A stretch of 37,882 nt of DNA from contig JAGOVS010000012.1 in assembly GCA_018060625.1 (NCBI GenBank), positions 1-37,882 on the forward strand, written 5' to 3'. Positions 32,152-37,757 of the stretch are shown here, piece after piece (the stretch's first letter is position 1; each line of letters opens with the position of its first letter). The position numbers and the translations under genes are program-made. The notes beneath the pieces are model-generated. The model ran no database searches. It worked only from the letters and a program-made list of their open reading frames with translations, and was not told where the DNA came from. Source of the DNA: Bacteriovorax sp. GTDB lineage: Bacteria; Bdellovibrionota; Bacteriovoracia; Bacteriovoracales; Bacteriovoracaceae.

Positions 32152-32661
32152 TTATTCTTTTTCTGTATAACAAATTTCCATATACATCGGGCCGTGCTGT
32201 GTATTGAATGGAATTAAAATAATATTTGTTCCTGAGGGGTAAGAGATAGAATGATCTTTTCCTTCTACCAGTGATGGAATGGCCATATTGGAAGAGTAAC
32301 CCATAGTTTTCAAATCTCTTTTAGCATTACCCATAACCATGTTGACAATTTCTCCCCCTAGGTCATGAATTTCTGGAGAGTAGGAAGTGTATGTCTCACC
32401 AAGCATCGCACTGGCAACTTTGAAATACGTATCGTAGGGAAAAGAGATGACAAGCATGGCCTTGTATTGGCATCGATTACCATTTTTTTCCATTTCACCT
32501 GAAAGCCCTAAGACTGCAGAGATGTCTCCTCTTGAAATAGAGTCTTTTTTTATAATCGGCTTTTGGGTATCTAGTTTGGTGAATACCATCGTTTCAAAAA
32601 CATTTTTTGCAGCTTCAATAAATGGCTTTGAAAATTCGACAAAATGCGCGTCTGCTGACAT
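32152..32661 (-). CDS. cheX: CheX-like CheY-P phosphatase
   Basis: This is a 169-residue protein of the CheC/CheX/FliY phosphatase family, which accelerates CheY-P dephosphorylation. The catalytic signature D-x3-E-x2-N is intact as D100, E104, N107 in HDLGGEIVNMVMGNAK, and the trailing proline is P129. A single copy of the signature and a length near 155-170 fit CheX rather than CheC. The frame opens at TTG 32673, but ATG 32661 has a GGGAG site. It is the last gene of the five-gene minus-strand operon, 12 bp after the pseudo-HPt gene and one gene away from cheY, its presumed substrate. No cheA, cheW, cheB or cheR appears in this window. Confidence 0.85.
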   Translation of the reverse strand: MSADAHFVEFSKPFIEAAKNVFETMVFTKLDTQKPIIKKDSISRGDISAVLGLSGEMEKNGNRCQYKAMLVISFPYDTYFKVASAMLGETYTSYSPEIHDLGGEIVNMVMGNAKRDLKTMGYSSNMAIPSLVEGKDHSISYPSGTNIILIPFNTQHGPMYMEICYTEKE

Positions 32662-32673
32662 AGATACTCCCAA

Positions 32674-33177
32674 TTAAAGTCCAAGACTTTTCATTAATTC
32701 ATCAATTGAATTCTGATTTAAATTTGTATTATTATCGATGGCGCAAGACGCCCTTTCGATGTCCTTAAATTTCGCTGATAACCAATTGAGCCTTGTAACA
32801 AAGGCATTGGTATTCAGATTATTCATACTTGTTTCGTTACCATTGAGCAGTGATTTATTCATTTGTCTGAGCATGTGGAGTGAATCAAATAATACGGCAA
32901 CAACAACTTCGATAAGTGGAAGGTCTTTTATCTGCGAGGACTTATATCCTATGACTTTACCAAGTTCACAGAAGGTCGCAATTTCCGTTGCACCAATTGA
33001 TTTGGCCGCGCCCATGATTCGATCAATGATTTGCCCAAATTTTTCCAACTCTTTTGTATTTGATGGGTCTTCTTCCATCAACGTTAAAGATGCTTCAAGT
33101 TGATCGAAGAGACTATTGGCCTCATCACAAAAATCCTGAATGATTTCCTTCATAGAAGGATCGTTTAGTATACTCAT
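32674..33177 (-). CDS. Helical pseudo-HPt-like protein with CheZ-like C-terminal tail
   Basis: This is a 167-residue all-helical, soluble protein. Residues 11-65 resemble the P1/HPt domain of CheA (FCDEANSLFDQLEASLTLMEED ... KFGQIIDRIMGAAKSIG). The HTLKG signature is replaced by D52-R-I-M-G56, so the phospho-accepting His is Asp and the conserved Lys is Met. After a flexible Asn-rich linker (about 143-156) the protein ends SIDELMKSLGL, which closely resembles the CheY-binding C-terminal helix of CheZ (VDDLLDSLGF). Encoded between cheY (8 bp away) and cheX (12 bp), it is probably a CheY-binding adaptor, decoy or divergent phosphatase. The CheZ-type catalytic D-x3-Q helix is not apparent. Its function is an inference. 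Confidence 0.7.
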   Translation of the reverse strand: MSILNDPSMKEIIQDFCDEANSLFDQLEASLTLMEEDPSNTKELEKFGQIIDRIMGAAKSIGATEIATFCELGKVIGYKSSQIKDLPLIEVVVAVLFDSLHMLRQMNKSLLNGNETSMNNLNTNAFVTRLNWLSAKFKDIERASCAIDNNTNLNQNSIDELMKSLGL

Positions 33178-33185
33178 CTTTTCAC

Positions 33186-33581
33186 TTATTTAAAAATACG
33201 CTCTATCTTTTCTTTAAGAACTTGGGCCGAGAATGGTTTTACAATAAAATTGCTAACCCCTGCTTTAACTGCAATAACGACGTTCCCTTGCTCAGCTTCA
33301 GCTGTAATCATTAAAAAGGGTAATTTTTCTAGACCTGGAGTTGCTCGAACATTTTTTAATAAGTCAAGGCCAGAAAGTTGGGGCATATTCCAGTCTGAAA
33401 CAATAAATTCATATGGCTTTCCTTCTTTTATCGCATTTTCTATCATTGGCCATGCTGTCGCACCATCATCAGCTTCTGTTATATTGGTAAAACCAATTTG
33501 AGAGAGCATGTTTTTAATAATTTTTCTCATCGTAGACATGTCATCAACAACGAGAATTTTGATATCAGATTTTAAGGCCAT
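33186..33581 (-). CDS. cheY: CheY-type single-domain response regulator
   Basis: This is a 131-residue receiver domain without an output domain. Conserved residues are the acidic pair D13/D14, phospho-acceptor D63 in VSDWNMP, switch Thr T93 in MITAE, and K115 in VKPF. The W64-N-M-P stretch and length match chemotaxis CheY (E. coli 129 residues). The rotameric switch residue equivalent to Tyr106 is F112. Phosphorylated CheY would bind the flagellar switch protein FliM. The neighbours CheX and the CheZ-tailed protein point to local control of CheY-P lifetime. It is the third gene of the operon, 46 bp after the HD-GYP-like gene. Confidence 0.9.
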   Translation of the reverse strand: MALKSDIKILVVDDMSTMRKIIKNMLSQIGFTNITEADDGATAWPMIENAIKEGKPYEFIVSDWNMPQLSGLDLLKNVRATPGLEKLPFLMITAEAEQGNVVIAVKAGVSNFIVKPFSAQVLKEKIERIFK

Positions 33582-33617: not shown

Positions 33618-33638
33618 ATGCTGCTTACTATGCTGCTT
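33618..33638. repeat. Short direct repeat at the HD-GYP-like stop codon
   Basis: ATGCTGCTT occurs twice (33618-33626 and 33630-33638) separated by ACT, spanning the end of the HD-GYP-like gene. On the coding strand this gives tandem stop codons TAG TAA between the two copies. It may mark a small duplication. Confidence 0.5.
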
Positions 33639-34671
33639 TTTTTATAACTAGTTTATCGGCATTTATTAAAGTAACTAAACTATTATAAATCATATCACCA
33701 AAATCAAATTCTAAACCAGGGATATAACTTTTATTTTTCATGCTCACTATTATACTCTTTAAAGGAAATTTATTGCCTGTAATTTTTCCAGAAGAAAACT
33801 CAAATAAATGGGCCATACTTCCTACAATTTGGGAAAGCGGTTCTATGGACTCTCCGTATTTCATGGTGGGGTATCCATTTCCTAAAATGCGCTCATGATG
33901 ATCTAGGATTATTCTCTTGGCCCTTTCACTAAGTTCTAGGCTACTTCTTTTGATAAGATGGTTGCCTAAAATAGTATGCTTTTCAAAGAGTGATTTATCT
34001 TTATCAAATAAGTTAAGCGTGGGAGTTCGTACAAGTGTGAGTGGGAGCTGGGTAAGGCCCATGTGTGAGAGGTAGGCACCGCAAACGATATCTGCTAAGG
34101 CCAGTTGGTCAGAGATATTACACGCTTTTGCCAAAAAATAGGAGCTGGCCACAATCCTGTTTAAGTAATGATCAGCCTTGAGATGCTGCTTGGATAATTC
34201 TAGTGCTAAAGAAATGGTATGGGTATGAGTCACGCTAAAGGTAAGAATTTCAATGCGGGCGTATTCAATAACTTTTTCAAAATTGTCATTTTCACAGGCC
34301 TTTTCAAATTCATTTTGAAAATTAAATACGCCATTTTTTTCATCAAAGATTTCTTTTAACTTGGCATTCATGATTCTTTCTTTTTCTAGTTCATGAAGAT
34401 CTCTTGATTTAAGGGAAGGGATATCAGCTTCTTCGTATTCCTGAGAATTAAGAAAAGTTCGGCGCTGCTTTTTTAAAATTGCAATTTTGCCGCCTTTTTC
34501 AAGCAAATAATCTAAAAAGGTCTCTAGTTCTTTCGTAAGCGGTCTATTGCCATTGAGAAACATGCTATATTTTTTATGAATAGGATTAAATATGAATAAT
34601 TGAAAAGGAAATGTCTTTTTTCCTTTTAAATTGTCTCGTTCAATAATAAAGAAATCATATTCCGTCTTCAT
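33628..34671 (-). CDS. Degenerate HD-GYP-domain protein
   Basis: This is a 347-residue cytoplasmic protein. An N-terminal ~110-residue beta-rich domain (IFNPIHKKYSMFLNGNRPLTKELETFLDYLLEKGGKIAILKK) resembles the DUF3391-like/PilZ-like N-terminal modules found before HD-GYP domains. The C-terminal part aligns with HD-GYP c-di-GMP phosphodiesterases: THTISLALELS, AYLSHMGLTQLP, FEKHTILGNHLI, DHHERILGNGYP (HHE 258-260, GYP 266-268). The metal-binding HD pair is S202-H203, the adjacent Lys is Leu, and the late VADxFDA motif is GSMAHLFEF. Catalysis is therefore doubtful, and a c-di-GMP-sensing or scaffolding role is possible. The gene starts 3 bp after the pseudo-receiver gene. Confidence 0.75.
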   Translation of the reverse strand: MKTEYDFFIIERDNLKGKKTFPFQLFIFNPIHKKYSMFLNGNRPLTKELETFLDYLLEKGGKIAILKKQRRTFLNSQEYEEADIPSLKSRDLHELEKERIMNAKLKEIFDEKNGVFNFQNEFEKACENDNFEKVIEYARIEILTFSVTHTHTISLALELSKQHLKADHYLNRIVASSYFLAKACNISDQLALADIVCGAYLSHMGLTQLPLTLVRTPTLNLFDKDKSLFEKHTILGNHLIKRSSLELSERAKRIILDHHERILGNGYPTMKYGESIEPLSQIVGSMAHLFEFSSGKITGNKFPLKSIIVSMKNKSYIPGLEFDFGDMIYNSLVTLINADKLVIKKAA

Positions 34672-34674
34672 GAT

Positions 34675-37494
34675 TTAACCTGTTTTTTTTCCTTTAAAGA
34701 GACCCGAAAACATTGATAAAACATTTTTCTTGTTTGATTTTTCTTCTTCTTGATTCTCTAATTCTTCAATATCTGATTCTTTTTGTTTTGTTTTTCGCTG
34801 AATACTGTCTAATTGGATGACCCTTGCCATTTCTAAGGTTATTTCAATATCCTTTTCATTTTTAGGATTGATTCCGTTTGGAAAAATCACCAGGACAATC
34901 CCCATGCGATCGACCCCATCAAAGTAGGGGAAAACAAGCTCAACCATTTTATTACTAAGCTCATTTTGGGCCCAAGAGGGGAGTTCAACGTCTTCCCAAT
35001 GTTCTTCATTAGATTTTTTGCTTTTTACATCACGACATATCCATGTAGTCATCGTTTTTAAGAAGTAATCTTCAAAAAGCGCATCTTTGTCTTTATGAGT
35101 ACTCCACCATTCGATGAGTTCAACGTGCTTATCATTTTGAGGTGTCTGCATGATGCTGTTGAAAGCTTCATGATGCTTTTTCTCGCTAACTTTATAAGAA
35201 TAGAAGATAGGATAACCTTGATAATGGGAGATCATCTCTTCTGAGATCATTTTATAGAAATCGGCAGGCCTTGATTCTTTTTGGTAAATTAAGTTTAAGA
35301 CATTAATACCAAAGTCAAATCCTTTAGGGTTGACTTCGATAACTTTAAAACTTCCTTCTTCATCCTCTGTGGAAGAACCTACCTTTTTCCTCTGGGCCTC
35401 TTCTTCATTGTCGGAGACGAATTCTCCTCTTGCTAATGAGTCGAATTCGGCCTTAAGCATACGGTAATCAATCGTTATTTCACCAGCATCTTTACGCGGC
35501 CCATTTGAGAGATTCTCATCATCTTTTCTACTCTTTTTTCCCAAGGCCAAGCTTATTTCTGATTCTTTCGAATTTAATATATCCCAATTTTGATCATTCT
35601 TAGAACGGTTTCCACTACGGTAAAAAGTGTCGATTTGATCAACTTTACCATTGCCTACGAGGTTTTCATTATCATCGCTGAACTCAAGGTCCGTTTGCCT
35701 CATTTTTCTTAAGGAAATTTCACCAGATTCATCGTCATCATTTTTCTTTTTTGCTTCTTTTGGCGAATCTGAGAGTTTTATGTTCGTTTCTTTTTTCGAA
35801 TGTCCTGCTTCGTCTGCATTTAGTTCATCATTTTGATCAATGTCTTCTGAGTTAGTGTTGGAATCATCTAAGTTGATGGTTGTTTCTTTGGATTGATTAT
35901 TAAGATCCCCATCATTTTCCTCAAGTTCATCTAGGTTCTGGTTATCATCATTTTCAGAAAAATCAATCTCGGTATTCTTAAGTTTTTTTACAGCGTCATT
36001 GTTCTCGTCATCTTCTTCATTTTCTTGTTGTTTTTTGGTTTTCGATACTAAATCATTAGATTGAATTTTTTTACTTTCATCGGTTGTGAATTCACTTTTC
36101 ATTAAAGAGTCAATAACGTCAGATTGTCCTTGTCTTCCTGCAAGATTCTCATCAATTTCGAGCTCCGTATTTGCTCGCTTTTTTCTCTCTTTAGTGACTT
36201 CTTCAATCTCTTGATCTGCTGGACGATCCTTTTCTTCAGCAAAGACCATATCCTGGGATTGAGATTTACGCTTTGGAGAGATCTCTTCTTCGGTCTCAAG
36301 GAAATCGCTTTTTTCTTCATCCTCAAATTCTATTTCAGTATTAATTGGACCTGCGGATCTATTCGCTTCATCCTCAAGCTCTTCGAGCTGTTTTTCTTCT
36401 AAGCGCTTTTTAGCTTCTTCAAAAAGTGAATCGAGTTCATCGAGTTCTCTGCGCTTTTTATGTTCTTCAGTTTCTTCCTCTGTCGATATCAGTTCGGAAC
36501 TGGGCGTTTCTTTATCAAAAAGGGAGAGTTCTTCTGTAGGGTTAAGAGTGTAGTTTAATGGCCTTTCTTCATCACCATCAGCTTCAGTGGACTCTTTTTT
36601 TGTAACATCAAGATCAATGGTTGTTTCTTCATAATGCTTTTGTTTTAAGTGCCTCTGCTCAATTTCTTCTTGAGCGGATTCTTCCTGTTCTTTTTTTGCT
36701 TTTTCGATTTCTAGTTCTTCACCAGAGCTTATTTTACGTTTTCCACGATAATACATGTCAATTTCGTTGAGATTCTCCTCTTGGTCTTCTTTATAGGTCT
36801 TTTCATCGCCAAAAAGAGAGGTTTCTTCTGTTTTTCGCTTTGATTTCCAATGCGTCTCAATCGAATCTTCGTGAGTCATTGCTTTAGATTTTAAGTGATC
36901 ATCGTAATTGATTGCATTTTCTTCTTGGTGAATTTTTTTATTTGTTGAATTTTCTTCATTGTAATCAATGTCAACTGCAACGTGTTCTCGATCAGCGTTT
37001 ATCTCACCCTTCATACCAGTGCTTTGGTTTATATCGATCATGCTTTTTACGACTTGATCTTTTTCCGCTTGCTTGCCAGCAGAGGTTTTAATGGAACGCA
37101 GGAGAAGTTTGACTTTGTAGAGTAAAGTCTTTGGGGGGGATGTTTCTAGGATGGCCTCAGTAAGACCGATTTTAGTGAATTTAATAAGTGTCTTTGCGGG
37201 GATTTCCTTAGGCGAGAGTAAAATAACTTTTGAGTGGGACTTTTGAATCATGGCCCTATTTTCTTGGAGAAAGGTTGCACATTTTTTAGCATTAGAAAAA
37301 GTGATAAGGCACTGGCCTGCCGATCCTAGAAATTGCGATAGCTCTTTTAGGTCGTCTATTATGGAAATTTCAATATTTTCTTCGACAGCAATACCATCCA
37401 ACACCTCATTTAATTTTTTTAGAGGTTCAGACATGGGAGGAATAATGGCAAGTTGTTTTTTTAATTCCATATTTCTTAATGAGCTTTTCGTCAT
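34675..37494 (-). CDS. Pseudo-receiver / acidic repeat linker / GAF-like signalling protein
   Basis: This is a ~939-residue cytoplasmic protein with three regions (numbering from TTG 37503). Residues about 14-140 resemble a receiver fold, but the phospho-Asp position lies in LITFSNA and the beta-5 lysine is not conserved (GLTEAILETSPP). Residues about 150-715 are highly acidic, low-complexity and probably disordered. They contain a dozen or so copies of a short T-x-[LI]-x-[LFI]-x-[DE] motif plus a few copies of an [EQ]-I-D-x-[FY]-Y-R motif. Residues about 718-905 form an alpha/beta domain (PADFYKMISEEMISHYQGYPIFYSY; VELVFPYFDGVDRMGIVLVIF) resembling a GAF-like fold. The end, VLSMFSGLFKGKK, is an amphipathic basic tail that could touch membrane. 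ATG 37494 is preferred to TTG 37503. It is the first gene of the operon, divergent from flagellin. Function is unknown. Confidence 0.65.
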   Translation of the reverse strand: MTKSSLRNMELKKQLAIIPPMSEPLKKLNEVLDGIAVEENIEISIIDDLKELSQFLGSAGQCLITFSNAKKCATFLQENRAMIQKSHSKVILLSPKEIPAKTLIKFTKIGLTEAILETSPPKTLLYKVKLLLRSIKTSAGKQAEKDQVVKSMIDINQSTGMKGEINADREHVAVDIDYNEENSTNKKIHQEENAINYDDHLKSKAMTHEDSIETHWKSKRKTEETSLFGDEKTYKEDQEENLNEIDMYYRGKRKISSGEELEIEKAKKEQEESAQEEIEQRHLKQKHYEETTIDLDVTKKESTEADGDEERPLNYTLNPTEELSLFDKETPSSELISTEEETEEHKKRRELDELDSLFEEAKKRLEEKQLEELEDEANRSAGPINTEIEFEDEEKSDFLETEEEISPKRKSQSQDMVFAEEKDRPADQEIEEVTKERKKRANTELEIDENLAGRQGQSDVIDSLMKSEFTTDESKKIQSNDLVSKTKKQQENEEDDENNDAVKKLKNTEIDFSENDDNQNLDELEENDGDLNNQSKETTINLDDSNTNSEDIDQNDELNADEAGHSKKETNIKLSDSPKEAKKKNDDDESGEISLRKMRQTDLEFSDDNENLVGNGKVDQIDTFYRSGNRSKNDQNWDILNSKESEISLALGKKSRKDDENLSNGPRKDAGEITIDYRMLKAEFDSLARGEFVSDNEEEAQRKKVGSSTEDEEGSFKVIEVNPKGFDFGINVLNLIYQKESRPADFYKMISEEMISHYQGYPIFYSYKVSEKKHHEAFNSIMQTPQNDKHVELIEWWSTHKDKDALFEDYFLKTMTTWICRDVKSKKSNEEHWEDVELPSWAQNELSNKMVELVFPYFDGVDRMGIVLVIFPNGINPKNEKDIEITLEMARVIQLDSIQRKTKQKESDIEELENQEEEKSNKKNVLSMFSGLFKGKKTG

Positions 37495-37593
37495 TTTTAC
37501 CAATAAAGATGAGGTTAAAAATATGTTTCTGCAGTGACTTTTAATTCCGAGAGTATTGATCTAGTTTTATTTTTGATAAAAATCATTATTTAT

Positions 37594-37621
37594 TAAAGGT
37601 TCTAAAAAAAGCTTCCGAAAG
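37594..37621 (+). promoter_or_regulatory. Sigma-28 (FliA)-like promoter of flagellin
   Basis: TAAAGGTT (37594-37601) followed by TCCGAAAG (37614-37621) resembles the flagellar sigma-28 pattern TAAAGTTT-N11-GCCGATAA, with a spacer one base longer than consensus. It would give a leader of about 130 nt. The rest of 37504-37593, including any promoter for the divergent operon, shows no clear consensus element. Confidence 0.45.
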
Positions 37622-37679
37622 AGGTATTAGTCAGAAAGCTGAGTCATGGTGACGACGCTAGAAAACCAAATTTTCAGTT

Positions 37680-37692
37680 GAGCAGTATGCTC
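37680..37692 (+). other. Small hairpin in flagellin leader
   Basis: GAGCA-GTA-TGCTC forms a perfect 5-bp stem with a 3-nt loop about 65 nt upstream of the flagellin start. It lies between the predicted transcription start and the two GGA motifs. Confidence 0.35.
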
Positions 37693-37724
37693 GTTGAGCC
37701 TGTCGAGAGACAAACTTAAAACCT

Positions 37725-37754
37725 AGGAGGGATACCGAATTCTACAGGGAGGAT
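37725..37754 (+). promoter_or_regulatory. Flagellin ribosome-binding site plus candidate CsrA sites
   Basis: The functional Shine-Dalgarno GGGAGGAT (37748-37754) lies within CTACAGGGAGGAT, which resembles the CsrA/RsmA consensus RUACARGGAUGU. A second AGGAGGGAT (37725-37733) lies about 22 nt upstream and has no start codon near it. Paired GGA sites, one at the ribosome-binding site, are the arrangement seen in CsrA-controlled flagellin leaders. Confidence 0.4.
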
Positions 37755-37757
37755 CTC

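Follow-up and report, generated by a model that had tools for sequence, protein, structure and literature searches.

ChePep, a chemotaxis regulator of Campylobacterota, has a receiver-like N-terminal domain. This protein (HP0322 family) is described as Glu-rich and needed for polar CheZ, with mutants that reverse too often (PMC11237671, PMC9665402). The mechanisms of dead receiver domains in bacteria have been called a mystery, and FrzS, a protein with such a domain, brings SgmX to the cell pole (PMC12632262). RomR consists of a receiver, an unstructured linker conserved in length and composition within each taxon, and a conserved C-terminal region, and acts as a polar hub (PMC3441718).

The protein studied here is encoded in a 37,882-nucleotide stretch from Bacteriovorax sp. 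(GenBank assembly GCA_018060625.1, contig JAGOVS010000012.1, positions 1 to 37,882), further referred to as the window. It comprises a pseudo-receiver, an acidic linker, a GAF domain and a basic aromatic tail, and this architecture is kept throughout the class Bacteriovoracia. Below it is called the hub. ChePep may resemble it as a chemotaxis regulator tied to a CheY-P phosphatase; the comparison concerns function only, and membership of the hub is not claimed. Reports of ChePep are confined to Campylobacterota, and its phosphatase is CheZ, whereas the 129 genomes searched here all lack CheZ and most of them have CheX. By analogy, RomR offers the best precedent for combining a receiver, a disordered linker of lineage-specific length and a C-terminal domain in a polar hub. 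However, the C-terminus of RomR is a short Glu-rich region and its partners are MglA/MglB, whereas the hub ends in a GAF domain and a basic tail, has a dead receiver, and neighbors CheY, CheX and flagellin. FrzS, like the hub, carries a dead receiver domain in a long protein, but in FrzS and AglZ a long coiled coil follows the pseudo-receiver; the hub linker has no heptad pattern and its C-terminal domain is GAF. The hub N-domain has as its top fold match a pilus-assembly-related receiver-like protein (4dad), a likeness to CpaE/TadZ-type proteins; unlike these, the hub has no ATPase domain. No pilus genes were recognized near the operon, for which reason we rejected a pilus role of the hub, and with it the pilus component considered in the initial annotation, which had been made from the sequence of the window. 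In our estimate the chances are about even that the hub is a phosphorylation-independent organizer of flagellar chemotaxis output, that is, of the CheY/CheX module.

Folded domains and family range

The features of the locus are listed in Table 1. The open frame spans positions 34675–37503 of the reverse strand (942 codons counted from TTG). In the alignment of orthologues, their starts correspond to an internal ATG (MENKKQ.. or MSxKPLIF..), the window equivalent being that of MELKKQLAIIPP; since the orthologues begin there, this ATG was taken as the true start.

Table 1. Coordinates of the hub gene, its domains and motifs, and the neighboring genes in the window
Feature	Position	Strand	Basis and remarks
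Flagellin, first 41 residues, divergent, cut by the contig end	37758..37882	+	Relatives have flagellin at the same place
Hub protein CDS	34675..37470	-	931 aa; TTG at 37503 lies 11 codons upstream of the ATG
Pseudo-receiver domain, residues 1-127	37090..37470	-	Alignment, AF2 model, Foldseek, YycF receiver by profile (E=0.003)
Acidic polyampholyte linker, residues 128-662	35485..37089	-	Composition, lag test, length conservation
Motif B copy 1, HEDSIETHWKSKR, residues 200-212	36835..36873	-	PWM, cross-validated
Motif B copy 2, NLNEIDMYYRGKR, residues 233-245	36736..36774	-	PWM; 33 residues past copy 1
Region with seven motif A copies (T283 to T593)	35671..36624	-	Pattern count
Weak motif B-like copy, QSDVIDSLMKSEF, residues 449-461	36088..36126	-	PWM score 12.0
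Motif B last copy, KVDQIDTFYRSGN, residues 609-621	35608..35646	-	PWM; starts 54 residues before GEITIDY
GE[QIVE]TIDYxxLKxEF motif, residues 663-676	35443..35484	-	Alignment; conserved between linker and GAF region
GAF domain, residues about 715-890	34801..35328	-	AF2, Foldseek
Basic aromatic C-terminal tail, VLSMFSGLFKGKKTG	34678..34731	-	Form kept across the family
Degenerate HD-GYP (HD_5) protein	33628..34671	-	Pfam PF13487 (E=6e-13); alignment
CheY, all five active-site residues (D D D T K)	33186..33581	-	NCBIfam CheY (E=1e-41)
Pseudo-Hpt protein, C-tail QNSIDELMKSLGL	32674..33177	-	Pfam Hpt (E=6e-6); alignment of 17 loci
CheX, CheY-P phosphatase, E..N motif kept	32152..32673	-	Pfam (E=2e-19); alignment

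The initial annotation had described a pseudo-receiver joined to a GAF-like domain, and structure prediction agrees with it at both ends. The N-domain was modeled as a (beta-alpha)5 receiver fold (AF2 pLDDT 89.5) and gave 103 PDB matches at E<=0.001 in Foldseek, nearly all of the matches listed being receivers. The active-site set of Asp pair, phospho-Asp, Thr/Ser and Lys is missing. By alignment and model, beta 1 and beta 3 both end without a conserved Asp: the positions of the Asp pair and of the phospho-Asp are not Asp, and E109 occupies the usual Lys position. The domain is therefore a pseudo-receiver. Pro12 is invariant and Glu109 nearly invariant, and the median pairwise identity is 51% in a set of 40 species. 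The C-domain, which had no Pfam match by sequence, has a GAF fold (AF2 pLDDT 81; CodY GAF at E=1.6e-4, TM by target about 0.57), and its top Foldseek matches are mostly GAF domains (CodY, NifA, phytochromes). The tail (e.g. FFGKLFGKKA[SG]) is kept in about 39 of 45 relatives. It may be an amphipathic membrane anchor; its hydrophobic moment is ordinary compared to linker segments.

The whole protein had no match in Pfam and NCBIfam. The hub gene is single-copy in its own genome. Of 129 genomes from the order, 65 gave a match by protein search, the named relatives being Bacteriovorax, Halobacteriovorax and uncultured Bacteriovoracaceae. The N-domain profile matches 95 of the 129 genomes, many of these matches being distant. 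A scan of contigs with the full-length hub gave no match, and relatives were recovered with the N-domain profile. The hub loci are phylogenetically related and are not independent observations; named and G-numbered loci share species. In other families of the phylum, an N-domain was also observed beside an HD_5 gene (L117, L118, L119), with different linkers and C-domains.

Gene neighborhood

Flagellin is the divergent neighbor in 31 of 34 loci with a visible upstream gene. In several relatives the contig ends less than about 450 bases from the start of the hub gene, probably because repeated flagellin genes stop the assembly. In the five flagellin-less genomes the hub was not found. Of 39 loci, 35 have an HD_5 gene of one and the same family alongside the hub; most of the others are contig ends. 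Throughout the alignment of 34 HD_5 orthologues the HD metal pair is replaced by xH, while HHE..G.GYP is mostly kept. Among these orthologues (L051-L088), 24 of 34 end with -AA and seven more with another residue followed by A; such an ending could be a ClpXP-type degradation tail.

The operon includes CheY, pseudo-Hpt and CheX, or else some of these genes adjoin the hub-HD_5 pair in another orientation (L126, L127, L167-L172). The phospho-His position of pseudo-Hpt is occupied by Asp in all 17 aligned loci (GQxIDR). The consensus of its C-tail, QxSID[DE][LI][ML]xSLGL, resembles the CheZ C-terminus. Binding of the latter to CheY is cited in PMC3774744. Stand-alone fusions of the hub-type dead receiver and pseudo-Hpt were observed in loci L162, L163, L164, L165, L128 and L166. 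CheZ itself (PF04344) was found in none of the 129 genomes searched, and CheX in 104 of them. The window genome has CheW domains, one of them within a CheA-sized protein.

The state of the operon CheY follows the presence of CheX. Where the operon includes CheX, CheY keeps all five active-site residues (18 of 18 loci), and at least one is missing in 11 of 11 loci without it (L063, L064, L065, L067, L069, L070, L072, L073, L076, L080, L084), a count that cannot be read as a probability because the loci are related. In the eight genomes examined from the CheX-less-operon lineages CheX is encoded elsewhere, in seven of them beside a well-conserved CheY and once with pseudo-Hpt as well. Thus the hub and HD_5 stay together while the adjoining CheY may become inactive. 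That the neighboring CheY in several lineages is not phosphorylatable by the usual chemistry is evidence against the chemotaxis-output reading. Proteins of 350–440 residues in which the hub N-domain is fused to pseudo-Hpt were found in G120, G121 and G122, and a weaker fusion of 334 residues in G061, making four species in total. Such fusions are the most direct evidence at the level of sequence that the two domains may act jointly.

These data bear on an alternative that we consider unlikely, namely that the hub and the degenerate HD-GYP protein form a checkpoint of flagellum assembly or flagellin expression, reporting the flagellar state and acting on flagellin supply, with CheY and CheX merely co-located. 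The most constant neighbors are indeed flagellin and HD_5 rather than CheX, and in several lineages CheX and a working CheY are found elsewhere. Further, sigma-28-like boxes in the intergenic region between flagellin and the hub score higher than shuffles in either direction (9.6 and 9.1 of 12 vs 8.2 and 8.4); in the window, where this region is 37471-37757, the box toward flagellin scores 9 of 12, and the best one toward the hub scores 8, which is the chance level. However, the hub is linked to chemotaxis output by the fusion of the dead receiver to pseudo-Hpt and by the recurrence of CheX, CheY and pseudo-Hpt as neighbors, and Pfam and NCBIfam showed no domain that binds DNA or RNA and no chaperone domain.

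The acidic linker and its motifs

The linker had been described as acidic and of about 560 residues. Its acidity was confirmed (net charge per residue -0.13, charged fraction 0.44), but it is shorter, about 535 residues, and is Lys-rich too. The charged fraction is 0.44–0.62 in the family. Judging from composition, the linker is probably disordered. Its length, measured from the N-domain to GEQTIDY in 40 species, has a median of 520 and an interquartile range of 512–535, and in 35 of the 40 species it varies with a CV of 3.6%, at a median pairwise identity of 20%. Lengths range from 442 to 677 across the aligned set and are shorter still in L167-L172.

Hydrophobic residues in the linkers of the non-genus set are enriched at lag 2 and depleted at lags 3, 5 and 7. 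In simple tests, the maximum of hydrophobic residues at a/d positions did not exceed that of shuffles, and lags 3/4/7 were not jointly enriched. Heptad periodicity thus stays at the level of shuffles and gives no sign of a coiled coil; a coiled-coil scaffold, the outcome that would have spoken against the initial annotation, was rejected on these negative lag and heptad tests.

Two classes of short motifs were considered. The second of them in the initial annotation, [EQ]IDxxYR, proved the stronger one. It is further referred to as motif B and has the 13-residue consensus [KEQ][EAVT][DE]xI[DE][GTS][HY][YLMW][KR][GS]K. Usually there are 3–8 copies per protein, and 53 sequences contain 209 sites against 1.8 in shuffles, as counted on the training set of the PWM; all motif scans used composition shuffles. 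In cross-validation the class remains far above chance. The PWM built from other genera only finds three copies in the window protein and 4–6 in each same-genus orthologue, with 0.42 sites expected in all 11 shuffled proteins together, and the PWM trained on the genus of the window finds 113 sites in other genera vs 0.97 expected. In about 30 species the first, second and last copies are spaced almost constantly: in most species the first copy is at residue 189–202, the second is 29–34 residues later, and the last is 51–54 residues before GEQTIDY. Motif B is ancient. In genus g36 it takes the form ..TDKLxSHYG...

Motif B copies are absent in L037 and L038, which come from the same genomes as L085 and L077, respectively. 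Since HD_5, CheY and CheX are kept at these B-less hubs, motif B does not simply bind those proteins. HD_5 or CheX as its binding partner is not supported, on the same ground and also because g36 proteins with motif B have no adjacent HD_5. It is not a genome-wide motif either, the DNA pattern giving 39 sites vs 28 for the reversed pattern. The few open-frame matches outside the hub in the genome look like chance and form no shared client set; one of them is GyrB/ParE-like by eye.

Motif A, T-x-[IL]-x-[FILV]-[DSE], corresponds to the TEIEFED-type repeats, about a dozen of which had been described. Exactly seven copies (T283, 378, 435, 500, 530, 562, 593) fit it, whereas ETSLFGD and SEISLAL fall outside the consensus. 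It is the best of all gapped triplets (z=4.9 vs the 99th percentile of 4.8 in 500 shuffles), which after correction for selection among patterns gives p of about 0.01, barely above chance. In this exact form only 0–2 copies were found in each of ten same-genus orthologues, and so the motifs do not persist as the conserved docking sites that they had been taken for. The check by conservation among orthologues suggested in the initial annotation thus favors motif B and goes against motif A in its exact form. Counterparts of motif A are xLDL[IL][PA]GxKK in the genus and KKxLDLEEDD elsewhere; in L047, KKLGLNLED recurs about every 30 residues. In many linkers the similarity of 12-mers within a protein exceeds that to other lineages (per million pairs, 4682 vs 410 in L047 and 497 vs 200 in L029). 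The differing forms in relatives, together with this excess, suggest that the motif A array turns over by lineage. The window protein has no excess (142 vs 152), and the seven-copy pattern is the sole ground for a motif A array in it. Duplication at the DNA level was rejected as the source of these copies, as just weak repeats of about 75% identity were seen. Near-perfect tandem repeats TQAAYEGDLRTEKKDWAPYTGEAEK were observed in the linker of the relative L170.

The constancy of linker length at low identity, the lineage-specific form of motif A, and the RomR linkers, which likewise keep length and composition within taxa (PMC3441718), would fit a fixed-length tether, either a spacer or a ruler, selected for length and charge with most motif copies as by-products. 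We hold this to be less likely still than the checkpoint: the sequence and position of motif B are conserved, with about 200 copies vs under 2 expected, and linkers of other clades differ in length. Least probable, in our opinion, is a polar condensate-forming organizer, PopZ- or RomR-like and not specific to chemotaxis, for which the highly charged polyampholyte linker with multiple motifs, a basic aromatic tail that could bind membrane or pole, and the polar location of pseudo-receiver proteins such as FrzS would speak, but not the flagellar and chemotactic neighborhood or the ordinary amphipathicity of the tail.

Proposed function of the hub

A role in chemotaxis output is suggested by the flagellin, CheY, CheX and pseudo-Hpt neighbors, the receiver/pseudo-Hpt fusions and the absence of CheZ. 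The multivalent scaffold linked to CheY or the flagellum that had been proposed from the window is likewise supported by the position-fixed motif copies, the linker length and the gene neighborhood. As an organizer of chemotaxis output, the hub would have the dead receiver and GAF domain as folded ends, about 520 residues apart on a flexible acidic tether, which would display motif B in a few copies at fixed positions, along with a hydrophobic-acidic array of motif A that is specific to the lineage. Together with the degenerate HD-GYP protein, it may hold CheY, CheX and pseudo-Hpt at the flagellum base and thereby set the frequency of motor reversals. The flagellar location, the recruitment of CheX and CheY, and the effect on reversals are what we infer from the locus.

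More tentatively, and with clearly less confidence, it is possible that Bacteriovoracia, independently of Campylobacterota, evolved a large hub of dead domains (dead receiver, dead HD-GYP, and dead Hpt with a CheZ-type tail) that does not depend on phosphorylation. It would take the place of CheZ-based signal termination in that it puts CheX and CheY in position at the flagellum. Candidate docking motifs would then be of two classes, one ancient and fixed in position, the other turning over in concert in each lineage as if tracking a co-evolving partner.

The hub family provides a conserved case of a dead receiver with named neighbors and a testable list of partners. Across many genera its linker has held to one length and to a few motif positions, with the second motif class changing by lineage, which opens the question of what disordered linkers conserve to direct testing. 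If the hub does set reversals, it would fill a gap in the chemotaxis of Bacteriovorax-type bacteria, in which no CheZ is recognizable. Many flagellated members, e.g. genus g36, have just distant versions of the hub, some with another C-domain, and hence the hub is not essential for the flagellum. In the g36 relatives L122 and L123 the C-domain looks PilZ-like by eye, in place of GAF, and 4–7 motif B copies are present.
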